A stretch of 64,000 nucleotides of DNA, taken from Adenophora triphylla var. japonica (lineage: Eukaryota > Streptophyta > Magnoliopsida > Asterales > Campanulaceae). Position 1 is the stretch's first letter; each line of letters opens with the position of its first letter. The position numbers and the translations under genes were made by a program. Of the stretch, positions 11,786-52,883 are shown in pieces. A model generated the notes under the pieces. It was not told the DNA's origin, searched no databases, and saw nothing but the letters and a program-made list of their open reading frames with translations. The DNA is taken from assembly GCA_022495995.1 (NCBI GenBank), contig JAFEMH010004876.1:62001-126000 (forward strand). The letters run 5' to 3'.

Positions 11786-11875
11786 TTTAAACACTGGTCA
11801 AAACACAGAGGAATGTAAAAAACCAAGGTGGTCCGTACGGACCTCTTTGCAACCAGAGGTTGGTCCGTACGGACC
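11786..11875 (-). promoter_or_regulatory. Antisense PMD promoter: two palindromes and a TATA-like box, element A
   Basis: Perfect 14-bp palindromes GGTCCGTACGGACC lie at 11830-11843 and 11862-11875, 32 bp apart. Downstream in the minus sense is TTTAAA (11791-11786), followed by CCGAGGCTCCCCC. The LTR promoter has TATAAATA followed by GAGGGCTCCCCC, with the same palindromes upstream. The ATG of PMD is 121 bp further on. Confidence 0.65.
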
Positions 11876-11999
11876 TCTTTACCAAGGGGTGGCCAAATTA
11901 CTTTCACTTGCCCTTATAATCTTTGCCCCAGGCTGTCCCAGGCCTTTTCCGGCCAAATCCAAGTGCGGAATGGTCCCTAACCCTTCAAATCAACCACCG

Positions 12000-12530
12000 T
12001 CGAGCGTAAGGCCAGGACCTCGCCCAACACTTTAGCGGCAATTCAACCACCGGCCGTCAAGCGTAAGACCAGGACCTCGCCCACTTCAACGGCAATTCAA
12101 CCACCGGCCGTCAAGCGTAAGACCGGACCTGCGCCAGCTTCAACGGCAAATCAACCACGGCCGTCGGCGTAAGGCCAGGACCTCGCCCACTTCTTGCGGC
12201 AATTCCACCCCAGGCCGTCAGCGTAAGACCGGACCTCGCCCACTTCAACGGCAATTCAACCGTAGCGGCCGTCGGCGTAAGACCGGTCCTGCGCCCTTCA
12301 ACGGCAATTCAACCACCGGCCATCAACGTAAGACCGGTCCTCGCCCACTCAACGGCAATTCAACCACCGGCCATCAACGTAAGACCGGTCCTCGCCCAGC
12401 TCAGCGGCAATTCAACCACCGGCCGTCGGCGTAAGACCGGTCCTCGCCACTTCAACGGCAACTCGATCCCCGGCCGTCAAGCGTAAGAGCCAGGTCCTCG
12501 CCCACTCGACGGCAATTCAGAAAGACGACA
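12000..12530 (+). repeat. Tandem repeats with CCGGCCGTC core, element A
   Basis: About ten copies of a 54-57-bp unit carry CCGGCCGTCAAGCGTAAG, GACC-GGACCTCGCCCA and ACGGCAATTCAACCA. They lie between PMD and the 3' LTR. Elements B (15921-16554) and C (36585-37060) have repeats with the same core at the same place. Confidence 0.85.
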
Positions 12531-13293
12531 CCTCCCGGCCACGAATCCCAGGCACAAGACGCCTCCAGGCGCTGAGGCAATTCGACCACCGCCCAGCTCA
12601 GCGGCAATTCGAGGAAGGAGCCAACACCTCGGCTTACGAATCCCAAGGCACGAGACGCCCCTCAAAATGCCCGACGGCCATTCGAAGAAGAGCCAACACC
12701 TCCCCACCACGAATCCCAGAGCACGAGACGCCTCCCAAGCGCGCAGGCAATTCAAGAGAAGGAGCTGACACCTCCCGGCCACGAATATCAAGGCACAAGA
12801 CGCCTCCAAACGCTCAACGACAACTCGACCCTTTGCAGCCTCAAAATTCCGAAAGTCATCTTCCCAACGAAAGGGCCCTACAAGGTCATGCATCCCCAGC
12901 GGTTCAAGCACGGCGGTCGGTGTAAGCCCGAACCTCGCCCGCCAGCGCAAGCAGGCCATGAAGTAAGCCATGTAAATGGCCAGAGCTCCTCCCCGACAAG
13001 TCGATGAAGGGAAGTCATGCAAGGCTGCATATCCCGGGCCACCGACCATCATCCTTGCCCACTCAACGGCAAAACAAGCACGCGAAGGAGCGACACCTCC
13101 GTACTGAAGTCCCCGAGGCACGAAGCGCCTCCCAAAACGCGCCAAATGGTGAAGCAATCATCGGCCGTCATCCTCGCCCACTTCAACGCGGCGCAAGCAC
13201 CTGCAAGCGGTCATCGTAAGTCCAGGCCCTTCTACATCGACATGCAAAAACACAAAGGCATCTACGCCTCTCGAGAAGCACTAGGCGGCAACC
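12531..13293 (+). repeat. Diverged repeat units, element A
   Basis: Degenerate copies are built on CACGAATCCCARGGCACRAGACGCCTCC and the GGCAATTC end of the preceding unit, becoming irregular towards 13290. A long minus-strand open frame (12477-13157) is a by-product of these GC-rich repeats. Nothing else is seen. Confidence 0.6.
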
Positions 13294-14474: not shown

Positions 14475-15885
14475 TCGTAAGTACCCCAATCTGATCACTC
14501 CCTTTCAAACACACGGGAAACACCGTAGACTCATCCACGCGGCCTCGGAGACCTCTCTCACTCAAAACCCTCTCAAAACCCTCTCAAAACCCCAACCAAA
14601 CCAAGGGAGGAGCCTTTCTGGGACAAAAAGGGACAAAAGGACCTTTTGGGATTTTTCAGGAAATCAGAAAAGCAGTTAAGGTCCGTACGGACCTCTTTGT
14701 TTCAATGATTACTAAATCCCCTTAAAGTCCACAATATTCCCTCAAATCCGGAAGAAATGATGACTTCCTCTGCAGAGTTGGTCCGTACGGACCTCTTTGC
14801 ATGCAAGATGGTCCGCACGGACCTTCTTGCATGGGGACATCATCATTCCGTAATATTCTCCATCATTGCGCATTCCCTCAAATCGAGGAAATCCAAAATT
14901 CGGATAACCAAGAAGGTCCGTACGGACCTCTTTTTGCTCCGAAATTTTTACTATAAATAGAGGGCTCCCCCTCCTCATTTTCACACACCTCCCACTTCTC
15001 TCTTCCTCCCTAAGCCTTCTGGCTCCCCTTCTAAGACCTTTCGAGGCATTCCCGGCCCCTTCGGATCCTTCCGAGGCCTTCCGAGCTCCCTTGTGGTGCT
15101 CCGAAGCCTCTCCGAGCGCTCCCGCGACGCTCCCGCGCTGCCCCGAGGCACTCTCGAGGTACTCTGAGGCCCCTCGTGGTACTCCGAGGCCTTGCACAGT
15201 CTTTCCACGGTGTCCGGCTCTTTACGGAGTCAAAGCCGACGATCCCAAACCACGCCGAAACTCTGCCCGAGTGACTCCGCCACCACAACGCACGCCGAAC
15301 CTCCTGCCCGAGTGATCCCGACGATCCCCACGCACGCCGAACCTCCGCCCGAACGCAGCCTACAACCTCAACTCACGCCGAAACTCGTCCGCACAACCGG
15401 TCCCTCCCGAAGCAATCCCGATCCGTGCAGGAACGCTACTCCGACCTCAAACACTATGCCCCAGCGGAAGACGGACACGAACCAACATTGGTAAGGCTTC
15501 CTTCCTATACTATTTCAATACATTTCCATACATAGCATACAATGTAGACATCCGATACAGCATGCATTTTTAAAAGCACACACACACACACACAACATTT
15601 AAAGGATATTAGGGGTATCCGAAAGACTCGTTTTACGAGGCTACTCGGGTGAGCTCTAATATTCTAATATTCTCTTCCGGGAGTCATCGACCTCCGAACT
15701 CAAAATCTCATCACACAAAAACAGCTTTAAAATTATCTTTAAGCGATGCCCTTTTCAATGTTTTGGGCTTAATAAAAACGGCGTGGCGACTCTACAAATG
15801 CGAAAACAAACGGCGAGACACCTTCCAACGCGAAAGATGCCAGATGCCGGGGCCGCGAGGCCTTTCTCGGATCCGGGTAATTTCA
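14475..15885 (+). repeat. Element A 3' LTR
   Basis: The start CGTAAGTACCCCAATCTG corresponds to TGTAAGTACCCCAATCTG of the solo LTR (reverse, ending 51160) and of element C (39177). The end is GGGTAATTTCA. A purine stretch, CGAGGGCTT, precedes it. It contains GGTCCGTACGGACC palindromes, a TATA box at 14952-14959 and a CA microsatellite near 15580. The length is about 1411 bp, against 1430 for the solo copy. Confidence 0.9.
14680..14959 (+). promoter_or_regulatory. LTR promoter, element A: four palindromes and TATA box
   Basis: GGTCCGTACGGACC lies at 14680-14693, 14780-14793 and 14915-14928, with the variant GGTCCGCACGGACC at 14810-14823. TATAAATA lies at 14952-14959, 24 bp after the last palindrome. 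The palindromes are mostly followed by CTCTTTG, in most cases CTCTTTGCA. The same layout occurs in reverse in the solo LTR (50664-50944). Confidence 0.75.
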
Positions 15886-16554: not shown

Positions 16555-16620
16555 CCGGGGGTCTGGGTGCAGAGGACCAGAAATTAAAGGGGCAAAACAG
16601 GAATTTTGCCCTGCAATCTT

Positions 16621-16632
16621 GTCCGCACGAAT
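16621..16632 (+). promoter_or_regulatory. Degenerate palindrome upstream of PMD, element B
   Basis: GTCCGCACGAAT, preceded by TGCAATCTT, is a decayed form of the ATCCGCGCGGAT-type palindrome, which is preceded by GCAATCTC elsewhere in B (20147 and 29774). It lies 161 bp upstream of the PMD start codon. Confidence 0.45.
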
Positions 16633-16792
16633 CAGACCAGCAGGGCGCCTGGTTCAAAAATACAGACAGTCGTGTCTGTCTTCTCCAACTTCCCAAGCAG
16701 CTAGACAGAGAGACGAGAGAAAAACGAGAGAGAGGAGATAGAAACCTCCATTGTTGTCCAATTTCTTCGCAAAATCCTTCAAAATCAAGGCT

Positions 16793-19700
16793 ATGGAGCA
16801 AAGGGGAGGAGCTCGTGGAGTCCGTCGAGGACGGGTGAGTCGGGAGGCGGCGGAGAGGAGGCTCGAGTTGGTGAGAATGCACCGCCATTACACGCTCTCG
16901 CAATCGATGAATGAGGAGTTTTATCTGGATATGTGGCAACATTGGGCCACCGACGAGGATCTCCGCATGGTATGATACTCAATTTTGGCTCTTTTGTTGA
17001 TTTTTTGTCAAAATTGGTATATGTTAGACTTAGGGCTTGAATTGTCAAAATTGGGGCTTTTGTTTATTTTGCCATGGAAAATTGAAATTGGCGATGCATG
17101 TGTTTAATTGAAATTATGGGTAGAAAGAATATGCAATTTGTTTATGAAAAACATTGGTAGTTTGCATAATGTAAAAAACAAAGTGGGTACAAATTTACCG
17201 AATTTGGGACGGACTCTTGCATAAGAGATTTTTTTTGTGGTGAAAATTTGCTTTTGTGAATGCATGCTTGATGATATGATGCACGAATGTGAGAAAAGAT
17301 GCATGCTATGTAAGGATGTACAAATTTGCCGAATTTGAAACGGACTCTTGTATAAGAGATTTTGAATGAAAATTGCATTTTGTAAAATGAACACAAATTT
17401 GCCGAATTTGGAACGGACTCTTGTATAAGAGATTTTGAATGAAAATTGCATTTTGTAAAATGAACACAAATTTGCCGAATTTGAAACGGACTCTTGTATA
17501 AGAGATTTTGATGAGAATTGAGTGTGAGAAAAGAATGTGTGTAGGAAAATGTATCCGAAAATGGGACGGAGTTTATTTTCTTTCTTTTCTGTTCTTTTGT
17601 TGTTCATATCACATTGGCAATTTTGATGACATATTTGTGTTGTGTCTATTTTCAGGAGAGAGGTGATATCATCCAACGCAAGTTGGATAAGCTGAAGACG
17701 CGGGGGTCCGTGGAGGCAGTTGTCAGGCTTTGGGATGCTTTGCCCACAGCTGGCAGGGTGGGCTATCGGAGTCCTCGTCAGCTTGTGGTGACTTCTAAGC
17801 TTTATGGCTTTGTTGAGGGCCTGAGGGGAGTGGCTGGATTACATAAGAGCAAGGGGCTCCTTTTGGCGCTGGTGGAGTACTGGTGGGATGTTACCCACAC
17901 TTTTCACTTCTTTTGGGGAGAGGCTACCGTGACCCCTACTTATTATGCCGCTATTACTGGCCTGTCCTTTAAGGGGCTCAGCTTGGAATGGCACGACGGG
18001 TATATGGACGCGGAGCTGATGAATCTGCTGGGGATTGTCATCGTGCCGCGGAAGGGGATGGGCATGGAGTATGCCATGATCAAGACTAAGTTGGCCGAGA
18101 GCATAGCTCGGTACAAGAGAGGGGACCAGACCATCACAGCTGAGCAGATCGCTCGATGCTTCTTATGGTTCTCCCTTTCTAGCACTTTGTTTGGGCATGC
18201 TGAGGGTACGGCTATGTTCTCTTTGCTGGGGTCTTTGGCAGACATAGACAGGATAGATGAGTACGCCTGGGGAGAGGCTGGCTTGGCGGAGTTATACTTC
18301 GCTTTGGACAGATACAGCAGGAAGGCATCCACCTCCCTGACCTGCTTCGTGTTCCCATTAGAGGTACACTCTCTTTCTTTTCCTTTATCCTTCGTACATA
18401 TTGTGTATGCACTTTTGGTTTTTTGATGGGTTTCCTTTGTTGGATGCAGGTTTGGGCCTTGGAGATTTTTAGCTGTGCCTTGTGGGACCATATCCAGGGG
18501 GAGGCTTTTGCATACCCGGCGATGCTTTGGTGGACGAAGGACGCCCGGGTGAAGAGGACTAGCCGGACTAGGATAATGATGCGGTACAGTGATGCGATGC
18601 CATTTTTGAGGGCGAAGACTAGTGATAGGGTTAATTTTTACCCTTAGAGCCGGTTCGAGGTGGACCAGCTAGGTGGCGCTGAGCGCTGGACGAGCTCTGC
18701 GATGTTTACTACTTGGGGGAGAGGGTGACAAGGCAGCATGGTCTAGGGTTGGCTGCTTTGACGCTGGCTGAGCCTCCGACTGACATGATGTTTCCCCGGG
18801 AAGGGTCAGAGAATTGGGACTGGTTCAGAGGTGGGCGGCCTGCCCTGGAGTACGTTACTCAGGAGCCATATCAGGCGTTCGTGGTACGTAGGCTGAGGAC
18901 GCCTCAGGTGCTGGCGAGGGAGGGGGATTCGGTAGTGAGGATCCCTCGGGCGGACTTTTCGTATACCCAGGATGGGGTTAGGATGAGGGCACAGATACCC
19001 CTCCCAGCGGTGATGCCGTGAGCTTTTTGGCCTCGACCGAATGCTCAGGTATGTGCTGATCGCGTTCTGGTTGTTTTGGCTTTGTACTTCTTTCGTCATT
19101 ATTTCAACTGTTTTTTAATGCTTCTATTTCTTCTTTGCAGTACTTGTCCCGGGTTGTGGATCGACTTTTGCGCTAGGTTATCGGAGCGAAGAAGTTCATT
19201 CGCAACCTCATGACGCGAGGGAATGCGAAGGGCTCGGAGAGGGCGGCGCGGCTGGGATCTAGTGCTTCTATGTGGGAGAGGTCCCCCATTCCTGCCAGCG
19301 AGACTATGCCAGGCAGGAGGTCAATGGAGACTCCTCGCGCTCAGCCCAGGGGGTCGAAGGACGTTTCTCCTTCTGGCTATATGGACAGGAGCGTGGAGCT
19401 CTCCCAGGATCATATCATCTTCGGAGGCATGGAGGGACCGGGCTTCATACAGGGCAGGACCGGCGAGGGTTCCTCTTCACACGGTGGTGGTTACGGCGCT
19501 TTTGAGCTGCAGGGAGATTATGGGACTCCCTTACAGACCCAGGGCACATACGGCCAGAGTTCTGGCGCCTTCTCCTTCGGGTACGACTTCTTTGCGGATA
19601 TTGGTGTGCCGTATCGGGGCGTGTCGGCTGATCCCGAGGACCGATACTCTGATGCTGAGGAGGATGACATAGAGCCGGAGATGGCTTTTTCGGAGGCAAC

Positions 19701-19803: not shown

Positions 19804-20272
19804 GTGTACTTGTTAGGGCAGAAAACACATATACATTTGATGCACATTATTTTCTATTTTTGGCATGTAAAAACTAGTTAATACATTTTATTTTGCTAAG
19901 TATTTTTGTTTTGTTAATCCAATACTGAATGCAAGTTGCATGAGCCCGATTTTGTGTTTTATGGGGACAAAAGAGGGATATTTGTTGGGATTTTGAATGA
20001 AAATCATGGGGAATGGGTATATTTTCATGTTTGGCCGTTTGGGGAAGGATTTCCTCATTTGGGCCAGCAGTTTTTATTGTTGTCAAAAAAGTTTTTGGAC
20101 TAGGGAACAATCTTATCCACGTGGATGAGATTGAGGCTGCAATCTCATCCGCATGGACAAGGGCAGCACCTGGCAGGGTTATTTAAATTTCACCTCAGAG
20201 CTGGTTTTCATCACTCAACTTCATCTTCTTCTCTGTTCTTTCTGAAGCCATGACGCAAAACCATAGAAAGCC
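19804..20272 (+). promoter_or_regulatory. PMD-DUF7745 spacer with DUF7745 promoter, element B
   Basis: The perfect palindrome ATCCACGTGGAT lies at 20115-20126, with an imperfect partner ATCCGCATGGAC at 20147-20158, 32 bp apart. TTATTTAAAT, a TATA-like box, follows at 20179-20188. The start codon of DUF7745 is at 20273. The rest of the spacer is AT-rich with no coding signal. Confidence 0.65.
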
Positions 20273-21685
20273 ATGGAAAACATGAAAAATTCTCCTAAAT
20301 TGCCAAAAGAGTTGTAAATGATCTTCTTTGACAAGTTCAAGGAATGGTCTCGGGAGGTCATGAATGGGAATAGGGCTTTCTTTGAAGAAAGATACAAGAT
20401 CAAGTCTCTATGGTCTCTTAAGGAGCTCGTTCCGGATTATGACTTGATGAGGGCTTCTGCCGCGTTCTGGGACACTCGAAGGCATGTCTTTTGCTTCTCC
20501 TACAACTAAGTGGTTCCCACCATTGAGGATTTTGGGGCGTTACTTGGAGGACCTGAGGTGGAAGAGGTTGCAATTCCCTTGCTCGGAGGGATGTTTTTTG
20601 CCAACAAATTGTCTGGCCTCCTTCAAATCTCTCCGGAGGAAGCCCGAATTATGATTCGAGGACCCGACTATTTTGACATTTCTAGTCTCCCAGATAGGTT
20701 TAGGAGCTTGGGTGTTGTTGGTGATTTTTATTGGGATGCCTTTGCTCTTTGTGCAATCGGGTCCCTGTTCATGGTTTGCTCCTTTGGGATGTGCCACCGG
20801 TCTCTGTTAGACGTTGTTGTGAACTACCGATTGGGCCGGGATATAGTTCCCTTGATCTTGGGAGAGACCCTTCATGCTATTGACCGGTTGGCCACCGGGA
20901 AGCGGTACATGCACGGGGGAAGCCCGTTTCTATTGTCGATGTGGCTGATGGAGAGGCTGGGGGTCCTGCGGGAGGCTCCACTTGCATTCAGGCCATGGAC
21001 TTTTTCCAGGAGGGGAGTTACAGTTGAGATCGAGGATCAGGCCTCGTGGGAACGCTGGATGGCTCAGCGTCGTACCCAGGACATCCGATGGTGGATTCCG
21101 CACTAGCAGATAGAGACTAGGAGGATGCTCCAGGAGGGATCTCAGGTAGTCATGCTTCTGGGGCTCAGTTGGTCTGCCTTCTACATTCCAGCTTTAGTTC
21201 TCAGGCAGTTCGGGATGGAGCAGGTACCTTTGGAGGGCTGCGATGATATTGCCACCCGGGTGGTGATGTCTGTTTCTATGGATGATCCATCTGCATTTCC
21301 CTTCTTTTCCCGAGTATGGAGGTATCATGCTTTTCCTCCTATAGTCCTTCTCAGGCGTCCGGAGAGTATTTATCTGTCCACTTGGTACTTGGATTGGTAT
21401 GAGGGACACATGAGGGAGACTCAGGTGACTCTTATGAGGAGGCGTGAGGCCACGGTGGGACCAGAAGATGTCCCCGTGTCAGTATTGAGAAGAGCTGAGG
21501 CGAGGGCCAGCTCATATGACAGGAGTGGAGATGATATGTTTGACTATGAGATGAGAGTGGAACGTAAGAGAGACAGGGTTCCCATGACGCTACCCAGGAG
21601 GCAGGAAATTAGAGGCAGGCTTGATGGACCCGGCCCCTATGCCGAAGCTAGGGAGGAGGAGGACGGACATCATTCCCGTGCCTAG
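20273..21685 (+). pseudogene. Element B DUF7745-type gene, one frame with three stops
   Basis: A single reading frame of about 470 codons runs from ATG 20273 (MENMKNSPK) to TAG 21683 with no frameshift, broken by stops at 20315, 20507 and 21104. It holds the family hallmarks: LWSLKELVPDYDLM, HVFCFSYN, VVPTIEDFGALLGG, the AIDRLATGKRYMHGGSP motif, WERWMAQ, and RVWRYHAFPPIVLLRRPES. The C-terminal part is rich in Arg and Glu. The same protein in element C reads through two of the three positions. The function is unknown; no catalytic motif or membrane segment is evident. It runs antisense to B's pol and starts behind its own palindrome/TATA region. Confidence 0.8.
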
Positions 21686-21998
21686 GAGGAACACAAGGCA
21701 TGGGGAGGAGACGGAGGAGGACAGAGGGAGATGCTGGCTCTAGTGGCTAGACCCTTGAGTATCCACTGATCATCCTTGCCGACACATTAGTTTTTAGTTA
21801 TGTATTTTTTATGTCTTTTCTTTTAGCTTAGTTGTGAGTTTAAGAGTAGACCAGGCTTGAACTCATCAAGAAGCTTTTAACTGTAATGAGTAGGTGAATT
21901 GAATTAGAGTTTTTTGAGACACAGATGCGATGTGATCATTGTGTTGATGAGAAAATTTGATGTTTATTTATGTTTTAGACCGAACCATTTTTGGCTGC

Positions 21999-29348: not shown

Positions 29349-30876
29349 TGTGATGATGTGTATCTGATTTTTGGCCGCCCGACAAAACTTTTGTTTGTTT
29401 TTGGAAGTTTTGAAAAATCTTTATCGGACTTTGAAAAATCATTTCGGAGTCGCCACGCCGTTTTTAGTTTAAGGGCCAAAACTTTGAAAAATACCCAATA
29501 TTAGAGAAAGTGAGTTCGGAGGTCACGTTACACTCCGGGAAGAACGTTGGTGTTCACCCGGAATGCCTCGTACGACAAGTCTTCCTCACTTGAAACCTTT
29601 TGTGTGTGTGTGTGTGTATTTGAAAGGACTTTTCTAAAAATAACTGAATTTTGGGGACTGAACTGAAAAAAACAGTTTAAAAGCAGTGATTAAACTGAAA
29701 AAATAACAGAAAATTGAGGGACTGTTTGCAGATGACAATGTCATCTGCGTGGACAAGACTGCAGTGCAATCTCATCCGCGCGGATAGCCCTGCAGTGTCA
29801 ATATTTTTACAGTTTTCAGTTTAGTCACTGTAATTTCCAGAAAGTTAACTGGATTTGCAAGACTTAACTGGAATTGTAACTGGAAAGACAGAAAGTAAAG
29901 GGGGATTTGGATTTTGGCATCCATGCTTGTCCTCTCTTTCCCTAGACTTTGATTAGTGGTCATAAGTGATGAATCCACTTAATCAAGTCATCCTGGGGGC
30001 ATGTCAGGACTTTGTGAGCATTTCATTTGCTAGGGGAAAAGGAGAATTTGACATGAAAGTAAATTTGAACAAGGAATAGGTCAAGATGTATCAACTTTAG
30101 AGGAAGATTTCTAAGGTGGTCATAAGATGACCATCCTTGAGATCTATACTCAAGTATATCTCCTACATCTTGTGTGACCTATTTTGTAAGTCTAGATGAT
30201 GTTCATCCAAGGAAAGTGTTCCAAGGTGAGCATCTTAGACTAGGGAGGGGGATTTGCAAGGAAATAAATGATGTGAACCATTTGAAATGATCATCTATGG
30301 AGATTGACTCCAAGATGACCACATTTAGGTCAAGAAAGCAAGTAAAGAATAGAAAATGTAAAGAGGCATGAAATTAGCAAATATGGACCATTTGAAGTGG
30401 TCATCCATGAAGATTAACTCCAAGGTGACCATCTTCTAGGTCAAGCAAGCAAGTACCAAATAATGTAAAAAGGGGAGAGGGGAATAACATGAAAGTATTT
30501 AAAATGTGGATTCCATTAGAAGATCATCCATGGAAAAGGATTCCATGGAGATCCTCTTGGATCCTTGGGACAAGAGGGAAATGGGATGAGCAAGTAAGTA
30601 AGTAAACAAGGCTACATCATTTGTATATGAAATACATGGATGGATAAAGGAGATTTAAGTAAGGGAGGTGAAGGTTTACCAATTGTTTCTTGGTTTATTG
30701 TTTAGGATTTGAGAGATTTCAAGGCTTGAGAGTAGTTTGAGATGAATTTGAGGTTGGATTTGGTGTTGAATTTTGAATTTTGAAGGTGTAAATGGCTATT
30801 TGGAAGTGGATTTTGACAGCATAACAGTAGGTTTTCGTATTTTTTGGGTGTTTTCTCCCTTGTTAAACTGAGTACA
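29349..30876 (-). repeat. Element B 5' LTR
   Basis: In the minus sense it begins TGTACTCAGTTTAACAAGGG and ends CATCATCACA, about 1528 bp, with canonical TG...CA ends. AGCAC (30877-30881) would be the target duplication; the partner copy is not in the window. It contains three ~85-100-bp repeats around ATCATCCATGRAGATT and CAAGATGACCA (30110-30560) and a GT microsatellite near 29603. The second LTR is absent, so divergence cannot be measured. Confidence 0.8.
29743..29785 (-). promoter_or_regulatory. Paired palindromes in element B LTR
   Basis: ATCTGCGTGGAC (29743-29754) and the perfect ATCCGCGCGGAT (29774-29785) are 31 bp apart, each preceded by a CA- or CT-containing AATC/AATG block. The pair has the same spacing as the pair upstream of DUF7745 (20115, 20147). 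Confidence 0.65.
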
Positions 30877-30927: not shown

Positions 30928-32495
30928 TTAACAAATAATGTGTCTGAAATGCAATGAATGGATACTTAGGAGGTCATTCCGCCCCACCCGCGCTTGTCCC
31001 TCGCCATTCTTCCCTTTCTTCTCTCGTCCCCGGCGAGTCTTCTTTCGCTCCACGCGAGCCAACTCTGTCTCTCTCATTCCGAGATTAGGGGTCCTCCCCG
31101 TAGATTCAAACAATCCAGCAGCTCGCAGAGCTTCATTCGCCCGTGTCTTGGCCCGGATCTCCTCCCTGCGAGTTTGCAAAAGGGGACCTCTCTCCGTCAT
31201 TCGGTCAGCTCTAGTCTCGTAGTCAAATAAAGTGTCTCCCGTCACATTCTGAGGGTTAGACCAGGCTTCGGCACTTCTAAGGCTATAGCTAAGACGGCAA
31301 CCCTGCCCTAGAATCGCTTCACGCCTGCTTCCCAAAACCATTTGGGACTGCCCGACATGCTGCTCTTACCAATCCAGGTACTCGGTGGTCAACGCAACAC
31401 TCTCCCGACGTCGAAGGAGCACCACAGGAGGGAAAGCGAAATACTTCCATACCCTCAGAAAATACAGAAGAGCATCTGAAGCTGCCATGCAAAGAGAAGC
31501 TACCTCCACAGTGGCGATGTCATCCCAGCCCAGCAAAGGCTCCTGCCTCATCCTGAACTGTCGGGAAACGAGCGACGGAATATAGAAGGAGGACCAAGAC
31601 AAACCTGGAACTCTGACAACATAGGAACCTTCCTGAAAGGCCCTCCTAGTCTCAATCCCCCAGTGAGGGACCCACCAACGGATCTGATGCGTACCAAGCT
31701 GTGCCATCCATCTCTCCCAGGCGGACTGATCCATATCCAATACAAGAGGCCGCCGAGCAAACGTCCACGGGCTAAAAGACGTCGGAGACTCGGGCATGGC
31801 TTGAAGCCTCTCTCGCAACCACAAGGTGAGCATAACGGGGCTTCCCCCTCTCATGAACCTATCCCCAGTCGCCAGGCGATCAATGCCATGAAGGGTTTCC
31901 CCCAGCACCAGTGGAGCAATATCCTCCCCGGCTCGGCAGTGCCCTACTACATCCAACAAAGCGTCGTCAGATACCCCAAGGGAGCTGACCATGAAAAGCG
32001 TCGCTTTCACGCACAAAGCAAATGCATCCCATGAGACGTCACTCTCATCATCACTCATAAACCGCTCCGGAAGCGCAAAAATGTCAATATGACCAGAATC
32101 AAAAGTCATACCTTGCACTTCTTCCAACGAAGTCCGAAGAAAGCATGCGAGCTTCACGCTTACGGCTGCATCGCCAATCAAAGGAAGCGAGATGGCCTCC
32201 ATCTCCAGTACTCCAATCAAAGCCCGAAAATACTTAAAGGTGGGCGTGACCTCATTGTAGGAGAAGCTATACACGTGCCTCCTAACATCCCAGAACTTCG
32301 CAGCAGCCCGCAACAATTCCCAATCAGGAACTAACTCCTTAAGGGACCAAACCGAGCAGAGTCGAAATCTCACCTCGAAAGCCTGCTTATTGTGCCTCAT
32401 ATGGTGCCTCTCCACATTTTGAACCGCTCAAGGAAGAATGCTCGCCTCTCCTTCGAAAGCCTCAGCAAAACTCTTGGAACAAACGAAGAATCCAT
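30928..32495 (-). pseudogene. Element C DUF7745-type gene, near complete
   Basis: ATG at 32495 (MDSSFVPRVLLRLSKE). A one-base frame change near 32405 joins to a frame that is then open down to 31366, stopped once (TAA after EYLDW) and open again to 30928. Motifs are LWSLKELVPDW-like (VWSLKELVPDWELL), HVYSFSYNEVTPTFKYF, GIDRLATGDRFMRGGSP, WERWMAQLGTHQIRWW and RVWKYFAFPPVVLLRRRES. The tail is rich in Arg, Lys and Glu and could be a nuclear or nucleic acid-binding segment; that is inference. About 520 codons. The gene is convergent with the lost pol and its promoter has two palindromes. The function is unknown. Confidence 0.8.
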
Positions 32496-32612
32496 GGAAA
32501 AAATGGAGGTTTCTAGAGAAAATGGGGAAGAAGATTCGAAGGGATTGCAAATGGGAAATGGGAGAAAACCAAACTTTCTGTAACTCTTATTTCCTTCCCA
32601 AAAGCAAGACAA

Positions 32613-32655
32613 GTCCGCACGGACCACTTTGCATGCTGGATGTGTCCGTGCGGAC
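32613..32655 (-). promoter_or_regulatory. Paired palindromes upstream of DUF7745, element C
   Basis: GTCCGCACGGAC (32613-32624) and GTCCGTGCGGAC (32644-32655) are 31 bp apart. Both are followed by CACTTTGCA on the plus strand. The first is 118 bp from the start codon. Confidence 0.7.
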
Positions 32656-33738
32656 CACTTTGCAGCCTAGCCCCACATTTTCAGCAAACTGCAAAACAGC
32701 TACTGCTCTCGGCAGGACCTTACCCCCAACTGCTCAAAAGTCTGGCCAAAGCCATTTCCGGTCACCATACACTAACCACAAATGCATTCCCAGCTCATGC
32801 GACATGCACAAAATAAAAATAAGCTAGCAACAATTCTTAGGTCAATCCCGGGAATCACAAATACGTCATTACGTCTTAAAATAAAATACTTTGTTGTGCA
32901 AAATACAAGTGTATTATTACAAATACCAGATGTCTGTTGCTCTACAAATACAAAAAAATAACAACGGAAAGAGGGATGCAAGGACGAACCCTCACCCTGT
33001 GCGCCTGACGGAGGAAAGATTTGATAAAGGGTCTGCGGCCTCTGGGCCCCCAAAGACGTCCCCACATCAAAACTCTGTCGTTCCCGAACCGGCACCTCAG
33101 GCTGTGGCCCTGGCTCAACCCTCAAAGAAGGAGTATCCACAGACCTCCTCGAAGGCATTGGCTCGAACGCCGTCGCGCTCCGCGAAGACCTACAAGACAT
33201 CTTCCCCAAGAGCTTCTTCGTGAAAGACCTCAACCCCATGTACCGACGGGTCAGCGTGTCAAAGGATCGTCCAGAGACCTGCGCAAGCAAACAACCAAAG
33301 AAACGCTCAGCAAAAGAGATACAATCATACTCGATAAAAGAGAAAAATACAGAAAAGATGCCAAGATGGAAAAGAGTAAGCACGCTCACCGGAGCATTCG
33401 AGTCAACCCGATAAGTAGTAGGACCATGCTCAAGGACGGTCACGGTCACCCTCCTCCTCGAAGAGTCCCCGCGAACATACATGAAGTCCGGCCCAGGCAC
33501 CGGAACATCTGGAGGACGTGGCGGGCTATCCTGCCTCTCCCGCACCAACACTTGTGGCGTCCTCAGCTTCCGCCTGACAAAGGCCGCATACTCCTCTCCA
33601 TCCAGGATGAACTCCTCGGTGCTCACGCTATCTCGGTACCTCTCGTACTCCAGCACGTCCATGTCGAGAGGACTTATCATACCGAGGGGCGGATCCCTCG
33701 AAGCCATAGGGGGCACACCTGCGCCATGCTGCCAGAAG

Positions 33739-34063: not shown

Positions 34064-35229
34064 GCCAGAAGACCCTCTCCCCTAGATACATGACGTCGCA
34101 AGTAAGGCCTTGCAACATCTTCCTCTGCCGTGTCACCCCGGGGGCACCCTCGAAATCCAAGGGTACAACTTAAACCCCTCCGGACTATCCCTCTCTAGGT
34201 ACTCCTGCACATCCTTATATGTGACAGTGACCTTTCCCCTGGTCGTCCTCCTCTTCCTCAAAGGGCGGGCCCAGCACAGCATGGTAAGATAGCCCACCAT
34301 GGCCTCATCTTCCCAGTCCCACGGCTGGCACCGGAAGATCTCATAGCACCACGCCTGCAACAAAAAGCAGAGTGCTTAGAACAAGAAAAAGAAAAAGAAA
34401 AAGACGGAGAAATGACAAAATGCTAAACTACAACAGCAATAAACTCATACCTCCAGTGCAAAGTCAAAACACCCCAGGGAGTTCGACGTACCCCGGCTGA
34501 ATCGATCCATGGCAAAATAGAGCTCAGCCAAGCCCGCCTCGCCCCAAGCAATCTCACCAACCCTCTCCAAGTCCACTAACTCTCCAGCAGAGGGAAAAGA
34601 GCGGAAGAGGCATGATTCGAGAACAAAGTCTCGGAGAGGGAAAATCACAGAAAAGAGTGCGCCAGCTGCTCCGCCGTCACTACTCCAGTGCCCCGGCGGT
34701 AAGCCCCGATGTTGGCCGTGATCTGCGCCTCCACATCGTGGTACACCATGCCCAAGCCCTTACGGGGATAGGGCGCAAACCCAAGCAGCTCAGCCAGCAC
34801 CCCATCGGACATCCTGTCCCGCCACTTCACCGACTCCCCCTTAAAGGAAAGCCCGTTGATCGCCGCAAAATTGGTAGAAGTCACCGTCACCTCTCCCGAG
34901 CTAAAGTGGAAGGTATGCGTGGCGTCCCACTGGTACTCATACAGAGCCAAGAAGATGCCCTTGTTCTTCTGCGTCTCCGCTATCCCGACAAGGTTCTCCA
35001 CGAACACGTTCAGCCCAGTAGCGATCACTAGCCTCCGAGGACTAGGCCTCCCATCTCGGGAAATATCGGGCAGGCTCCGCCACAACTCAACCACGGCCTC
35101 AAGGGACCCCCGTGACTTCATCTTCTTCGCCTTCCCAGACGAAGGCACCTCATCATGCAGGTAAACACAACAAAGGTACGTGAATAACAGTACTTAAGCA
35201 AATATACAAAAATATATATATATATACAA

Positions 35230-35850: not shown

Positions 35851-36455
35851 AATGTACATACGGAAATAGCATTAGGTACAAGTTACTGAAGCATGCATTT
35901 CAGGGAGAGGCACTTTATTTTCATAAATAAGAGCTAAACTCCACATTATTGCACAAAAATCACATATCCACAATTCTTACATGCTCAATTTCAACAATTC
36001 ATCGTAAATTTCACAAAGTGGGCATGGCAACAACAAAAACTCCAAATATACAAAAAACTAAAACCTAGTTCTAGCATACATCATTTCAAGCAAAAATCAA
36101 AGCAAAAAATTGACTTCTTACTTCCCTTACGGTCCTCCCCCGCAAGTTGTGCACCTCCAAATCCGGATACAACACATCCGGATTCCTTGTTGAAGGCACG
36201 AAGGAAGAACAATTCCTTTGGAGATCCAATCTCCTCTCCATGGCCTCTTGGCCCCTTTGGCGACGACCTCGTCTGATTCTTTCCGCCATGATAGCAATTC
36301 AATAACCTCGGAAGAATTCCCTAGGAAATTTTTGAACAAAATTCAAAAAAAAATCTCTCTTTCTCTCTCTCTCGTTCGAACAGAAGAAGAAAATGGAGTT
36401 GGTGTTCGTTGCTGAAGCCTGGTTTTGATTTGGGGGAAATCGAATTCCCATACCA

Positions 36456-36467
36456 ATCCGCACGGAC
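36456..36467 (-). promoter_or_regulatory. Palindrome upstream of PMD, element C
   Basis: ATCCGCACGGAC, followed by CACTTTGCAT as at 32625, lies 167 bp from the PMD start codon. Only one copy is seen. Between it and the ATG is a CT-rich stretch (36356-36372). Confidence 0.6.
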
Positions 36468-36584
36468 CACTTTGCATTTCAGGCGAGATTACCCTTTTGC
36501 CCTTATAATCTTTTTCCCTGGCCATCCAAAGGCCATTTCCAGCAGATTTAATGCAGTTTGGTCCTCAACCCAACAAAACTAACA

Positions 36585-42881: not shown

Positions 42882-43436
42882 CAAGGTGGGGCCTTTCTGG
42901 GATAAAAAAAAGGCAAACGGACTTTTTAGAAATTTTGTAAAATATTGATACTACAGACTGGGCCGTGTGGACCACTTTGCATCCAGACATCATAATTGCA
43001 AAATCCCCTTAAAGTCCACAATATTTTCTTAAATCCAGGAAAACGAAAAAAATGGTAATGGCAGATTGTCTCCCGCGACAAACCTTGCCATTTTCAGACC
43101 CCTATAAATAGAGGGCTCCCCCTCTCATTTTTCACACACCTCTATTCTATCCTCTCTTCCTCCCCCCAGCCTTCAGGTACCCTTCTAAGACCCTTTGGGG
43201 CAATCTCGGTCCCTTTCGGTTCCCTTCGGGACATTTTGAGGCCCCTCATGGTACTCTGAAGCCCTGCCGAGCGCTCTTGAGGCACTCTCGAGGCATCTTG
43301 AAGCCTTTCTGGTCTATTCTGAAGACTTTCCGGTCCATCTCGAGGCATTCCGGCCCATCCCGAGGCGTCACGGTCCATCCCGAAGCCCTGCCGGACAATC
43401 CCGGTCCATTTTGAAGCAAGCCGGACTCTGCCCGAG
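42882..43436 (+). repeat. Element C 3' LTR, second piece, with promoter
   Basis: It continues at CAAGGTGGGGCCTTTCTGGG, matching 14600-14630 of A. It has a decayed palindrome GGGCCGTGTGGACC (42960-42973) followed by CACTTTGCATCC, and TATAAATA at 43103-43110 followed by GAGGGCTCCCCC. It is cut at 43436 by element E. Confidence 0.85.
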
Positions 43437-44427
43437 TGTAGACACCCCATTCTGAACTAATAATTACATGATTACACTACTCTTCATCTCTCTTTTATGT
43501 TTTGATGAAGGCATATTAGTTTCGTCATGTTTCGTTAAGTTTCTAACTAACCTCGTTAGTTTTGGACCTAACTGACTAACGAAACGACTGAAGAGGGCAA
43601 AATAGTCATTTGACTAGTTGTCCTGCGCGGGACATCTGTGTATCGCGCGAGACAACCCCTCTGTAGGATGTGCAGAATCACTTTTCTTCTCTGTTTCAAC
43701 CTCTTTCTTGATAAATCTTATCATCATCCGGTTCTCCAATAGCAACTGAGTTCTGAAACCTTCCTAGGGTAATTTCCCTCTCCACCTTTACCTCTCAACC
43801 CTCACTTTTAGTATTTTGGAGATCCCCGATCCTTGATCAAAAACGCATAACACACACCTTTTGTTGGTTTCTCTCCCTGAAAGATTCCCACAAAATCACC
43901 CTAAAATCACCTAAAGTTTGTTTATCAACCTTGTTGATCAACAAACATCGAAGTCCGAATCAAGGATTGAGGCGAAGCTCTGTCCGCATCAAGATTAGAA
44001 TCTAGGATTGAGTCGAAACTCTGTCTGAATCTCTTCTCAAAAGGTAATCGTCCTTTAACTTTTGTTTCTCTTCTCAATTCCTCTATTGATTTTAGAGTAG
44101 TGTAATCCCATCAAAAGGATTAGCCTAGAGTCCCTTCAATTCATGGAGGCGATCTCGAAGCATACAATCCGACATTCCTAATTAATAAATTAATTAGGAT
44201 TTATTTGTTTCTTTTTATTGTTCATAGATTGATTAGATTAATAACACCCAATTAGCAAGACCAATCTTCGGATTGGGTGGAATGGATGCTCCTTGACCTA
44301 CCCATTCCATAACTTAACCCCCGAACCCATGAATCTCTTGAAATATCAAAAAGGTTTTTCTTATTATTTTCTATCAATAAATAATAAGTGGCGACTCCTA
44401 GATGTTTAAAAATTCACCATCGCTACA
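43437..44427 (+). repeat. Element E 5' LTR
   Basis: It contains the palindromes GTCCTGCGCGGGAC (43620-43633) and GTATCGCGCGAGAC (43640-43653). It lacks the TATAAATA present in the 3' LTR (52244), because of a short deletion near 43800. Confidence 0.9.
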
Positions 44428-44447: not shown

Positions 44448-44857
44448 AATTAATTAAGAGGGTTAAACTTGCGTTACAATTGGGTGTTATTAATCTTTTC
44501 AATTTTTTGTTTAAAATTTGATTTTTCTGAATTTTTTGGAATTTTTCTGCACTATTTTCCTCAAAAAAAAAATTACTGTCTTGTCCAGCGCGGGACAAGC
44601 TTGTCCCGCGCGAGACTAATATTCCACTTTCTCTAGCTTCTCTGTTTGGCGGCGGCAAACGGCAAAACAAACAGAAACATTCAAAAAAAAAATTCCAGGA
44701 AAATCAAATAAATTATTTTTTTTATTTTGCTTGTATTAACTTTATTTTGCAGGGAAGAATTAATTATTAATTTCTTGAACTATATACTTGCATGAGATTG
44801 AATTATTTTAATTTTTACCGGTCATTGGTTGACTCGGGCTTTGTAATTAATTAATTT

Positions 44858-44935: not shown

Positions 44936-45946
44936 AAGTAGAACTACGATGGCCTGAGTCTTTCTGAATTGGGAGAAACGTAGACAACTACTAAGTGCGG
45001 CCATTATCTGTTTTTCTTTTATTTTTCAAAAAAAAATCTCTATTTTATCTATCACCTAGATTGACTCTCACATACGCGCACTCATGCTATATCTGTTATT
45101 GCACTACATACCTCGATTAACCCGGGACCCACACTAAGGACGGATGACGGTAACCACCTAGTCACCGGTCTCTTTGAAGTTGGATCATCCCACTCCGCGT
45201 ATTCAATCCACCTAGATTGTCATATCGCGGGGAGCCTAGCCTTTCAGCCCTGCATCGCCACCTATCATGTAGAATATTTTCTAGGATCACTCCGTGACCG
45301 GTCGGTTTTGACTCGGTAATCTTTCTTGTCTTTGACCAAAATAAAGCTAAAGTAAAATTGACTATTGAGAAAGGATTCGGAAAAGTCCCTTCAGAAAAAG
45401 AAAAAGTCTCTTCGAAAATGTCCCTTCGGAATGACCCTTTCGGAAGTCCCTTTAAAGAAAAAAAATCCTTTTTGAAAAATGATTTTACATGGCTTTATTT
45501 TACAAAGAATGGTCAATTACTGAGTCCCTAGGTTTGATTCGAATTACGTATACCTGTAAGATTTACCTAGGATACTAGATAGAAAACAGATCTTTGTCCG
45601 TCCGACCATGAATTTAGGAAATAAAAAGAAAAAAATACATCTCTCTGAATGGTTGTCTCGTGCGGGACTACCTTGTCTCGCGCGAGACTTTATTTGCAGA
45701 ATGTGTGTTTGTGATTTATAATCGATGTGCTCTCCCTCATTGAGTCAAAACTCCGTCTATAATAAAAATAAAACTTCAAAAAAAATCGCTCGTGAGGTAA
45801 TTTTAACCATCATCCTTTTCTCAACCTAGGATCGTTTGGGGCTAATATTCTAAAAGGCATTTCGTTGGGATATCTCTAGTCCATCTCTAAGGTTGTCAAG
45901 CTCCCTTACCTCTCCAACGGTGGCAACTCAATTTCTTTTCGACACG
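44448..45946 (+). other. Element E leader with palindromes, CT microsatellite and motif G
   Basis: It contains GTCCAGCGCGGGAC (44583-44596) with GTCCCGCGCGAGAC (44603-44616), a (CT)n run of about 35 units (44862-44931), a motif G hairpin (44944-44983) and a second palindrome pair, GTCTCGTGCGGGAC (45655-45668) with GTCTCGCGCGAGAC (45675-45688). Both pairs are 20 bp apart, as in the LTR. No coding region is seen. Confidence 0.65.
44944..44983 (+). ncRNA. Motif G hairpin, element E leader
   Basis: Outer stem CTACG/CGTAG and a 6-bp inner stem, TCTTTC with GGGAGA (two U-G pairs). It is preceded by GAA, as in all copies. Confidence 0.5.
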
Positions 45947-48317: not shown

Positions 48318-48348
48318 CTAGGTTGAAAACTCGTAAAGAGCGTCCTAG
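48318..48348 (+). ncRNA. Motif H hairpin, element E copy 1
   Basis: CTAGG, TTGAAAA, CTC-GTAAA-GAG, CGT, CCTAG. The inner CTC/GAG pair replaces CCC/GGG of other copies on both sides. Confidence 0.6.
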
Positions 48349-48393
48349 GCAAAAGTTAGAGCACAAAAATAAAAGACGCAAAAGAGATGCCCG

Positions 48394-48423
48394 CTAGATT
48401 GAAAACCCGAAAGGGCGGTCTAG
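48394..48423 (+). ncRNA. Motif H hairpin, element E copy 2
   Basis: CTAGA, TTGAAAA, CCC-GAAA-GGG, CGG, TCTAG. The outer CTAGA/TCTAG pair replaces CTAGG/CCTAG on both sides. Confidence 0.6.
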
Positions 48424-49165: not shown

Positions 49166-51520
49166 GCCCTTACAGGTGGATCGTCATCAATTAGATGTGT
49201 CAAGCATCTACATGTAGTATGTCGAGTACTCACCAACATAAAAGCCCGGTCTTGAATCGCCAGGATCGTCACCCATTAGGTGTGTCAAGCATCTATAGGT
49301 AGTATGTCGAGTACTCACCAACAAAAAAAAGCCCGGTCTTGAATCGCCAGGATCATCACCAATTAGGTATGTCAAGCATCTACAGGTAGTATGTCGAGTA
49401 CTCACCAACAAAAACAAAAAGCTTGGTCCTGAATCGCTAGGATCGTCACCAATTAGGTGTGTCAAGCATCTATAGGTAGTATGTCGAGTACTCACCTCAA
49501 CAAAAGCTCGGTCCCAAATCGCCAGGATCGTCACCAATTAGGTGTGTCAAGCATCTACAGGTAGTATGTCGAGTACTCACTAACAAAAAAGTCCGGTCTT
49601 GAACCGCCAGGATCGCCACCAACAAAAAAGCCCGGTCTTGAATCACCAGGATCGTCAGCTCAACAAAAGCTCGGTCCTAAATTGCCAGGATCGTCACCAA
49701 TTAGGTGTTTCAAGCATCTACAGGTAGTATTGAAATTACCCGGATCCGAGAAAGGCTTCGCAGCCCCGGCATCTGGCGTCTTTCGCGTTGGGGCGACGTG
49801 TCTCGCCGTTTTTGTTTTTGTAGAGTCGCCACGCCGTTTTTATTAAGCCCAAAACATTGAAAAAGGGCATCAGTTTAAAGATAATTTTAAACTGTTTTTG
49901 TGTGATGAGATTTTGAGTTCGGAGGTCAGATGACTCCCGGGAAGAGAATATTAGAATATTAGAGCTCACCCGAGTAGCCTCGTAAAACGAGTCTTTCGGA
50001 TACCCCTAATATCCTTTAAATGTTGTGTGTGTGTGTGTGTGTGCTTTTAAAAATGCATGCTGTATCGGATGTCTACATTGTATGCTATGTATGGAAATGT
50101 ATTGAAATAGTATAGGAAGGAAGCCTTACCAATGTTGGTTCGTGTCTGTCTTCCGCTGGGGAATAGTGTTTGAGGTCGGAGTAGCGTTCCGGTACGGATC
50201 GGGATTGCTTCGGGAGGGACCAGGTTGTCCGCGGACGAGTTTCGGCGTGAGTTGAGGTTGTAGGCTGCGTTCGGGGCGAGGTTCGGCGTGCGTGGGGATC
50301 GTCGGGATCACTCGGGCAGAGGTTCTGCGCGGCGTTGTGGTGGCGGGAGTCACTCGGGCGTAGTTTCGGCGTGATTTGGGATCGTCGGTTTGACTCGGAA
50401 AGAGCCGGACACCGTGGAAAGACCAGTGCAAGGCCTCGGAGTACCACGAGGGGCCTCAGAGTACCTCGAGAGTGCCTCGGGGCAGCGCGGGAGCGTCTCG
50501 GGAGCGCTCGGGGAGGCTTCGGAGCACCACAAGGGAGCTCGGAAGGCCTCGGAAAGATCCGAAAGGGGTCGGGAGTGCCTCGAGAGGACTTAGAGGGAAG
50601 CCAGAAGGCTAAGGGAGGAAGAGAGAAGAGGGAGGTGTGTGAAAATGAGGAGGGGGAGCCCTCTATTTATAGTAAAAATTTCGGAGCAAAGAGGTCCGTA
50701 CGGACCTTCTTGGTTATCCAGAATTTTGGATTTCCTCGATTTGAGGGAATCTGCAATGATGGTGAATATTCTGGAATGATGATGTCCCCCATGCAAGAAG
50801 GTCCGTACGGACCAACTCAGCATGCAAAGAGGTCCGTACGGACCAACCATGCATTTGGGTAATCATTTCTTCTGGGATTTGAGGGAATATTGTGGACTTT
50901 AAGGGGATTCAGTAATTATGACAGCAAAGAGGTCCGTACGGATCAATATTGCTTTCCCAATTTCCTGAAAATTCCCAAAAGGTCCTTTTGTCCCTTTTTA
51001 TCCCAGGAAGGCTCCTCCCTTGGTTTGGTTGGGGGTTTGAGAGGGTTTTGAGAGGGTTTTGAGAGGGTTTTGAGTGAGAGAGGTCTCCGAGACTACGTTG
51101 ATGAGTCTGCGGTGTTTCCCGTGTGTTTGAAAGGGGGTGATCCAGATTGGGGTACTTACAAGTATGTCGAGTACTCACCAACAAAAAAAGCTCGGTTTTG
51201 AATCACTAGGATCGTCACCTCAACAAAAGCTCGGTCCTGAATCGCCAGGATCGTCATCAATTAGGTGTGTCAAGCATCTACAGGTAGTATGTTGAGTACT
51301 CACCAACAAAAAAATCTCGGTCTGAATCGCCAGGATCGTCACCTCAACAAAAGCTCGGTCCCGAATCGCCAGGATCGTCACCAATTAGGTATGTCAAGCA
51401 TCTAGGGTCAGTATGTCAAATACTTACCTCAACAAAAGCCCGATCTTGAATCGCCAGGATCGTCACCTCAACAAAAGATTGGTCCCGAATCGCCAGGATC
51501 GTCACCTCACTTCAGTCTCA
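49166..51520 (+). repeat. 85-90-bp tandem array of element E, split by a solo LTR
   Basis: Units are built of TCAAGCATCTACAGGTAGTATG, TCGAGTACTCACC, AACAAAAAAGCCCGGTC and GAATCGCCAGGATCGTCACC, with AGTATGTCGAG at 49216, 49301, 49388, 49478 and 49563. The array breaks at 49730 and resumes at 51161. A short form of about 40 bp (AACAAAAGCTCGGTC...CCAGGATCGTCACCTC) dominates the right part. Confidence 0.85.
49731..51160 (-). mobile_element. Solo LTR of the element A family
   Basis: A 1430-bp LTR in reverse orientation (minus sense TGTAAGTACCCC... to ...GGGTAATTTCA) flanked by the perfect 5-bp TSD AGTAT (49726-49730 and 51161-51165). No internal sequence remains, so it formed by LTR-LTR recombination. 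It keeps four palindromes (50693, 50800, 50831, 50931) and a TATA box (50671-50664). Confidence 0.95.
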
Positions 51521-51868
51521 AAAGAAAAATCGTTTGAATGCAAAGGACCGGACAGGTAAATCTTTATTTTCTAACATCTTTCCCTGCAGGTTCGGAGCCA
51601 AAACAGGAGAATCTTCAGACAGACAGGTATATTCAGAATTGGGTCATGATTTGATTCCTTAGTATGGATTTGCCTTTTAAAAAATAAAATCTCCTCGATT
51701 TTCAAAAATAATTTTCAAAATACCTAAAGCAGTATTTTCGTGTTTTGGGGTCGAACTACGTTTTGGTCTGATTCTCTGATAGAGATACGTAGGCAGCCGT
51801 GCGGCACGACCATCCCATTGTTCAAAATGATGTCTTTTCTATCGACAACATGACTTCTTCCATAAGTC
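51521..51868 (+). other. Element E 3' untranslated region with motif G
   Basis: Motif G at 51756-51792 has the outer stem CTACG/CGTAG and a TCTC/GAGA inner stem, followed by GCAGCC. Next comes GACTTCTTCCATAAGTCTTGTCGC, whose parts recur before the LTRs of A (CACTTCTTTCATAAGTGACGTCGTC) and C. Confidence 0.6.
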
Positions 51869-51885
51869 TTGTCGCCGAGGGGCTC
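51869..51885 (+). other. Polypurine tract region, element E
   Basis: CTTGTCGCCGAGGGGCTC with GAGGGG just before TGTAGACACC. Confidence 0.6.
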
Positions 51886-52883
51886 TGTAGACACCCCATT
51901 CTGAACAAATAATTACATGATTATACTACTCTTCGTCTCTCTTTTGTGTTTTGATGAACGCATATTAGTTTCGTTAAGTTTCTAACTAACCTCGTTAGTT
52001 TTGGACCTAACTGACTAACGGAACGACTGAAGAGGACAAAATAGTCATTTGACTAGTTATCCCACGCGGGACATACGTGTCTCGCGCGAGACAACCCCTC
52101 TGCAGGATGTGCATAATCACTTTCCTTCTCCGTTTAAACCTCTTTCTTGATAAATCTTATCTTCATCTGGTTCTCCAATAGCAGTTGAGTTCTGAAACCT
52201 TCCTAGGGTAATTTCCCTTTCCAACTTTAGCTCTCCAACCTCCTATAAATACTTGATGACTTTCAGTATTTCGAAGATTCTCGATCATTGATCAAAAACA
52301 CATAACACACACCTTTTGTTGGTTTCTCTCCCTGAAAGATTCCCACAAAATCACCCTAAAATCACCTAAAGTTTGTTTATCAACCTTGTTGATAAACAAA
52401 CATCGAAGTCCGAATCAAGGATTGAGGCGAAGCTCTGTCCGCATCAAGATTGGAATCTAGGATTGAGTCGAAATTCTGTCCGAATCTCTTCTCAAAAGGT
52501 AATCATCCTTTAACGTTTGTTTCTCTTCTCAATCCCTCTATTGATTTTAGAGTAGTGTAATCCCATCAAAAAGATTAGCCTAGAGTTCCTTCAGTTCATG
52601 GAGGCGATCTCGAAGCATACAATCCGACATTCCTAATTAATAAATTAATTAGGATTTATTTGTTTCTTTTTATTGTTCATAGACTGATTAGATTAATAAC
52701 ACTCAATTAGCAAGACCAATCTTCGGATTGGGTGAAATGGATGCTCCTTGACCTACCTATTCCATAACTTAACCCCTGAACCCATGAATCTCTTAAAAAT
52801 ATCAAAAAGATTTTTCTTATTGTTTTTCATCAATAAATAATAAGTGGCGACTCCTAGATGTTTAAAAATTCACCATCGCTACA
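51886..52883 (+). repeat. Element E 3' LTR
   Basis: Palindromes ATCCCACGCGGGAC (52059-52072) and the perfect GTCTCGCGCGAGAC (52079-52092) lie upstream of TATAAATA (52244-52251). The promoter is complete here, unlike in the 5' LTR. Confidence 0.9.

Follow-up and report, generated by a model that had tools for sequence, protein, structure and literature searches.

Long terminal repeat (LTR) retrotransposons form much of many plant genomes, and antisense accessory genes are frequent in the large ones. Why short palindromes should recur both in the LTRs and upstream of such antisense genes, in a sequence particular to each family, is the question raised by a 64-kb stretch of the Adenophora triphylla var. 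japonica genome (GenBank GCA_022495995.1, contig JAFEMH010004876.1, positions 62,001 to 126,000; hereafter the window, numbered from its first base). Here, we describe a 22-bp signature found at 19 sites in this window, and propose, with a probability of roughly 0.55, that the sites are DNA operators of a dimeric, element-encoded protein of the PMD family (DUF7745 or PMD). Such a protein would act as a joint switch for the LTR promoter and for its own antisense promoters.

Self-comparison, boundary search and three sequences resembling primer-binding sites (184, 29330 and 44429) identify the window as a nest of plant LTR retrotransposons (Table 1). Element A lies on the forward strand, element B on the reverse strand (pol at 22295-28095, 5' LTR above 29347), and element C on the forward strand with an interrupted 3' LTR. 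Element D lies inside C (LTRs 39336-40627 and 41585-42876, 99% identical), element E (43437-52883) is located within C's LTR, and E in turn contains F, a solo LTR of A's family. From the order of the pieces, whose outer ends are beyond the window, B appears to be inserted in C and A in B. In A, B and C alike, PMD and DUF7745 genes, or what remains of them, run antisense to gag-pol.

The 19 sites in A, B, C and F share [G/A]TCC-RYRY-GGA[C/T]-N4-TTG, oriented along the sense strand of the element, with 14 exact fits and five that depart at one position (A_PMD2, A_LTR4, B_PMD1, B_LTR2 and C_LTR1). The palindromes that the original prediction had named in A, B and C are real, all 15 fitting this common model. 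Counted over those 15 (F, as A's copy, is left out here and in the identity comparison below), the bases C (-3), G (+3), A (+4) and TT (+10/+11) never vary, and T (-5), C (-4) and G (+2) are each present in 14. The centre takes eight sequences across the 19 sites, all of the form RYRY, and a pyrimidine-purine step therefore always falls on the dyad. Of the 19 sites, 17 have TTG on the sense side and five have it on the opposite side, and for TTGC these counts are 14 and one; TT of the tail is on the sense strand at every site, and TTG flanks both sides of four (A_PMD1, A_LTR3, F_LTR4 and B_DUF1). At +7 to +9, A and F have TCT or TTC (10/10), B has AGA or ACA (5/5) and C has ACT (4/4).

Family by family, the placement that had been predicted is borne out. 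A carries GGTCCGTACGGACC exactly at 11830, 11862, 14680, 14780 and 14915 and with one mismatch (a GCAC centre) at 14810, four of these in the LTR and two before the antisense PMD gene, and GTAC is the centre in nine of the ten A and F sites. C carries GTCCGYRCGGAC exactly at 32613 and 32644, before DUF7745, and with one mismatch at 36456, before PMD; its LTR site at 42960 (GGGCCGTGTGGACC) is a weaker palindrome, with a tail that agrees with C's other sites. B carries ATCCRCGYGGAT exactly at 20115 and 29774, with imperfect palindromes at 20147, 29743 and 16621, so that its LTR, DUF7745 and PMD regions are all represented. The spacing within pairs, given earlier as 31-32 bp, comes close, but the six close pairs are 30, 31, 31, 31, 32 and 32 bp apart. 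Newly recognized are the four F sites (50693, 50800, 50831 and 50931), the one-sided TTG tail at fixed distance, and the common sense-strand orientation.

Within the window, the sites occur specifically at predicted promoters, on either strand. In a leave-one-promoter-out scan (eight units, with the LTRs of A and F pooled into one; both strands scanned, 12 bases on each side of site centres masked), no position outside the sites outscored any left-out site, in eight of eight units. The exact consensus yields 19 matches on the two strands, all at sites, and a looser pattern (CC-RYRY-RGA-N5-TT) yields 24 against a shuffle mean of 0.78, with 23 at sites and one elsewhere (2582); the looser pattern covers 18 of the 19 sites, some on both strands, and misses B_PMD1. 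As both patterns were drawn up with the alignment in view, the leave-one-out scan is the fairer test. First-order Markov shuffles (20) reach a maximum of 13.6 bits, and the lowest of the 19 sites scores 17.9. A model made from A and C ranks B_PMD1, B_LTR1, B_DUF2 and B_LTR2 at 23, 29, 31 and 43 among about 128,000 positions, and B_DUF1 only 193rd. Allowing up to two mismatches, GGTCCGTACGGACC has 12 matches in 64 kb (shuffle mean 0.09; 0/100 shuffles reach 12), and B's loose pattern alone is weak, with three matches including one at 2038, a count also reached by 1/100 shuffles. Imperfect 14-bp palindromes as such are common in the window (54 versus a mean of 33 in local shuffles).

Sites are present in each of the nine upstream regions of A, B, C and F preserved in the window: four each in the LTRs of A and F, two in that of B and one in that of C, and, among the accessory promoters, two for A PMD, one each for B PMD and C PMD, and two each for B DUF7745 and C DUF7745. 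TATA-like boxes follow the nearest site by 28-45 bp in five of the nine, at 45 bp for A PMD, 32 bp for B PMD (where the box, AAATACAG, is weak) and the distances in Table 1 for the LTRs of A and F and for B DUF7745. The nearest site in C's LTR lies 137 bp before TATAAATA, B's LTR has only a weak TATA-like box 127 bp past its nearest site, and no such box was found downstream of the sites for C PMD and C DUF7745. The distance from the nearest site to the predicted PMD start codon is 171 bp in A, 167 bp in B and 172 bp in C, the start in A and C having been picked by eye among several. Judged from these sequence features, the site-bearing regions would be active promoters.

Sequence agreement follows the element rather than the promoter type. 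Across different promoters of one element, core identity is 0.83 (21 pairs); between elements it is 0.62 at the same promoter (23 pairs) and 0.65 otherwise (51 pairs). Identity of the left and right flanks is 0.24-0.35 in every class, that is, at chance. Element labels were then permuted over the eight promoter units (560 permutations). For the tail alone (windows of +7 to +9, +5 to +9 and +7 to +14 were tried), only 2/560 permutations reach the observed difference, namely the true partition and the same partition with the B and C labels exchanged, which is the smallest possible value; this is the cleanest test, because the tail played no part in picking the palindromes. The flanks reach it in 546/560 (right) and 332/560 (left). 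C_LTR1 and A_LTR1 are at corresponding positions of related LTRs, where they share the flank AAATCCCCTTAAAGTCCACAATATT, yet each has the tail of its own element. The predicted divergence between families and agreement within a family, across LTR, PMD and DUF7745 promoters, is therefore upheld by core identity and tail permutation.

The original prediction had conceded that such sites might only reflect copied LTR sequence, but identity stops a few bases beyond the motif, and the chance-level flanks rule out that LTR copying or conversion alone produced them. Short stretches could be copied repeatedly between LTR and internal promoters by gene conversion or by template switching in reverse transcription, which would make within-family agreement mechanical. 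Template switching keeps the strand and would explain the common orientation, and A_PMD1 and A_LTR2 have 23 contiguous bases in common; the drop to chance between one element's promoters occurs on both sides of the motif, however, and without selection one would not expect conversion tracts of about 22 bp to end at the edge of the motif, which leaves this explanation improbable. The common orientation itself is probably a trace of origin by same-strand copying, for example template switching. Post-insertion CpG decay was dropped as an unlikely source of the family-specific centres, given GTAC in 9/10 sites of A and of its separate copy F.

Because promoters of both strands agree within a family, the factor that reads them should differ between families, and the simplest such factor would be a protein encoded by the element, DUF7745 or PMD. 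A host transcription factor of loose specificity could also drive all of the promoters, the family differences being inherited drift of ancestral duplicated sites. Borrowing of host factors is common among LTR promoters, the contacts of one such factor could account for the invariant bases at fixed spacing, and same-strand orientation fits descent from a single duplicated site. Drift would not, however, hold one element's promoters in agreement where another family differs and flanks are at chance, and we consider a host factor unlikely. The host motifs considered, among them SBP (GTAC), the G-box and auxin elements (TGTCTC in E), were rejected, as each covers one family or site and leaves the set unexplained.

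Function at the level of DNA is favoured by the flexible-step dyad, the in-phase paired sites and the position before TATA-like boxes. Were the sites instead to act in RNA, as hairpins on genomic (sense) RNA for packaging, dimerisation or stability, then the TT on one strand at all 19 sites would be accounted for, as would the leader pairs of E and the folding of five site-bearing stretches, which is better than in shuffles (z -3.4 to -7.0). Any palindrome folds, however, and the would-be loop, which in a hairpin would be free, is RYRY at 19/19 sites in its eight sequences; at -6/+5, G-T and A-C mismatches occur twice each (15 sites), where RNA would favour G-U, and the sites precede TATA-like boxes of both strands. 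A role in RNA is accordingly very improbable. Dyad symmetry, the flexible pyrimidine-purine step at every dyad and close pairs about three helical turns apart point to putative binding by a dimer.

The operator mechanism would run as follows: the element's PMD-family protein, as a dimer, would bind the palindrome-and-tail sites in U3 and before the antisense genes, and sites in the regulator's own promoters would make it autoregulatory. By analogy with VANC of VANDAL transposons, and in line with the positive role that MAIN and MAIL1 have at genes carrying their motif, the effect would be activation or anti-silencing rather than repression; repression may nevertheless apply, because the papers on the PMD proteins MAIN and MAIL1 also tie those proteins to transposon silencing. 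A further proposal, held more tentatively and at a little under even odds, is a private transcriptional code in plant Tat/Ogre-type retrotransposons, in which the antisense-encoded protein reads its own family's operators in an autoregulatory sense/antisense switch, protein and site co-diverging without cross-talk between coexisting families. If true, each family would switch its own genes and no other's.

The candidate regulators are related to each other, because one relative, P0001, matches both Pfam families over one region (PF10536 at 54-377 and PF24924, DUF7745, at 51-317). A protein search yielded eight relatives (P0001-P0008), and three of four DUF7745 relatives have a basic C-terminal stretch; nuclear proteins often end in one. 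A sequence search of the Protein Data Bank (PDB) gave one weak match alone (E 0.26). For P0002 (a DUF7745 relative) and P0008 (a PMD relative) alike, the longest contig measures 7702 bases, so the two may share one contig, as the two genes do in the window.

Several observations weigh against an element-encoded operator system. The tail follows the element's sense orientation in antisense promoters as well, a constancy that a factor oriented to the promoter would not require. The whole core sorts only modestly by element (6/560 permutations reach the observed difference), the central four bases alone fail to do so (52/560), and within-element agreement extends to one flank column, -10 (0.67). 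Differences between the A and F LTRs fall inside sites at 4/86 positions versus 36/387 outside, which is not significant (p 0.11). AlphaFold models of PMD and DUF7745 (mean pLDDT 36 for P0001 and 42 for P0006) are too low in confidence to bear on DNA binding. The promoter motif DOWN, associated with MAIN and MAIL1 and compared here in its MORC1 copy alone (CATGCAGTTT), is not enriched (seven near-matches versus a mean of 4.2 in shuffles, none at sites). Scans of genome contigs, viral contigs and phage records found no external relative, which says little, as these collections are not of plants. Finally, the families compared number three (A and C fairly close), at one locus.

Element E offers no test of shared operators, because it carries another motif and no accessory promoter was found to compare. 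The palindrome pairs expected in its LTR and leader are present as four GTCYCGCGCGRGAC-type pairs with a uniform spacing of 20 bp, one per LTR and two in the leader, and they lack the tail (TT at the tail position in 0/8 sites). By tblastn, E has no PMD, DUF7745 or pol match and gag only (45854-46861), and it looks non-autonomous. Its motif may be a distant variant of the signature or another system; its half-site TTGTCC is also found in B_DUF2 and B_LTR2. An E-like palindrome, TTGTCTCCCGCGACAA, lies in C's LTR (43066-43081), 37 bp before the TATA box (start to start) and at roughly the position of A's fourth site. In E's leader, a pair of adjacent E sites makes up a perfect 24-bp palindrome (44588-44611), about 150 bases after a primer-binding-like sequence.

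Table 1. Signature sites, E-type palindrome pairs, LTRs and accessory genes in the window.
Feature	Position	Strand	Remarks
A_PMD1	11829..11850	+	upstream of A's antisense PMD
A_PMD2	11861..11882	+	
A_LTR1	14679..14700	+	U3 of A 3' LTR
A_LTR2	14779..14800	+	
A_LTR3	14809..14830	+	GCAC centre; near-perfect longer palindrome, tails both sides
A_LTR4	14914..14935	+	centre 31 bp before TATAAATA at 14952
B_PMD1	16613..16634	-	upstream of B's antisense PMD
B_DUF1	20107..20128	-	upstream of B's antisense DUF7745; TTG tail both sides
B_DUF2	20139..20160	-	centre 28 bp before TATTTAAA at 20180
B_LTR2	29735..29756	-	B 5' LTR
B_LTR1	29766..29787	-	B 5' LTR
C_DUF1	32611..32632	+	upstream of C's antisense DUF7745
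C_DUF2	32642..32663	+	
C_PMD1	36454..36475	+	upstream of C's antisense PMD
C_LTR1	42959..42980	+	U3 of C 3' LTR; A_LTR1's position by flanking similarity
F_LTR4	50686..50707	-	solo LTR F; centre 28 bp before TATAAATA at 50671
F_LTR3	50793..50814	-	
F_LTR2	50824..50845	-	
F_LTR1	50924..50945	-	
E-type palindrome pair, E 5' LTR	43620..43653	+	different motif, 20-bp spacing
E-type pair, E leader	44583..44616	+	
E-type pair before E gag	45655..45688	+	
E-type pair, E 3' LTR	52059..52092	+	
A 3' LTR	14475..15885	+	92% to F LTR
F, solo LTR of A's family	49731..51160	-	target duplication AGTAT
PMD remnant of A	10034..10561	-	tblastn
DUF7745 remnant of A	7548..8281	-	N-terminal part and upstream region missing
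PMD exon of B	17656..18351	+, antisense to B	Pfam PF10536, E 3.7e-21
DUF7745 of B, broken by in-frame stops	20276..21698	+	tblastn to P0001
DUF7745 of C	30991..32400	-	tblastn to P0001; Pfam 25.6 bits, just below cut-off 26
PMD of C	34448..35139	-	tblastn; Pfam 34.1 bits, just below cut-off 34.9

The gag-pol with reverse transcriptase, RNase H and integrase domains expected of Ogre/Tat-type Ty3/gypsy elements is present in B and, by tblastn matches to B's pol pieces, in A; the 5' half of C is outside the window. In B, RVT_1, RNase H and Integrase_H2C2 are above the Pfam cut-off and rve is just under it (29.8 bits, cut-off 32.6). Antisense PMD stands between pol and the 3' LTR in A (as a remnant) and B by match order, and in C by its position before the 3' LTR. 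The passages available from PMC6317226 report PMD in 57% of Ogre elements, only a hint toward an Ogre placement. A's DUF7745 remnant matches P0001 at residues 198-433 only (tblastn), and by self-comparison positions 8285/8404 of A correspond to 31903/32764 of C. In A (10727-10986), B (17187-17520) and C (35346-35852), tandem repeats separate the first predicted exon from the PMD exon and probably fall inside a first intron. A G-patch domain precedes the reverse transcriptase in B's polyprotein (24943-28095, reverse strand), an array of tandem repeats of about 71 bp (15921-16554) stands directly after A's 3' LTR and before B's PMD promoter, and a direct repeat (58245-58539 and 59290-59531, 93-96% identity) outside the named elements possibly marks the ends of a small element.

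Among known systems, HTLV Tax acts on U3 repeats, and foamy virus Tas on the LTR and an internal promoter. These resemble the present case in having an element-encoded regulator and repeated U3 sites, for foamy virus also an internal promoter, and differ in that the proteins are unrelated and the accessory genes here are antisense, with upstream regions of their own. For antisense accessory genes of Tat, Retand and Grande elements, the passages available suggest a regulatory role with function not known; they concern TRP28, gene23 and others rather than PMD or DUF7745, and do not describe shared operator sites (PMC11963269, PMC7264820). No report of shared sites in PMD elements was found by title in a search that left subscription journals mostly outside, and of five palindrome strings sought in the literature one occurs, in two works on unrelated subjects by title. 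A likeness in protein is offered by MAIN/MAIL1, PMD proteins tied in the excerpts available to the short promoter motif DOWN, with direct recognition proposed as one option, a positive role at motif-bearing genes, and a link to silencing of transposons (PMC7156037, PMC9899485). DOWN in its MORC1 form is unlike the signature here. A family-specific site common to the LTR and the antisense genes offers a concrete, cheap test of PMD and DUF7745 protein function, and a lead on how the domesticated relatives MAIN and MAIL1 act.

VANDAL elements are DNA transposons (MULEs of Arabidopsis). Their VANC system, as described in the accessible part of PMC5735166, likewise pairs an accessory protein of the element with a short motif that is specific to the family, is repeated in one orientation in noncoding parts and co-diverges with the protein; the word palindrome is absent from that part, and the sites here stand at predicted retrotransposon promoters on both strands. 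The protein families also differ: Pfam assigns the accessory proteins to PMD (PF10536) and DUF7745 (PF24924), VANC itself not having been directly compared. A family-specific motif repeated in the noncoding DNA of the element is common to both. By this analogy, the accessory system of these elements may work like VANC without being classed as VANC and, if so, would extend VANC-type self-specific regulation to LTR retrotransposons.

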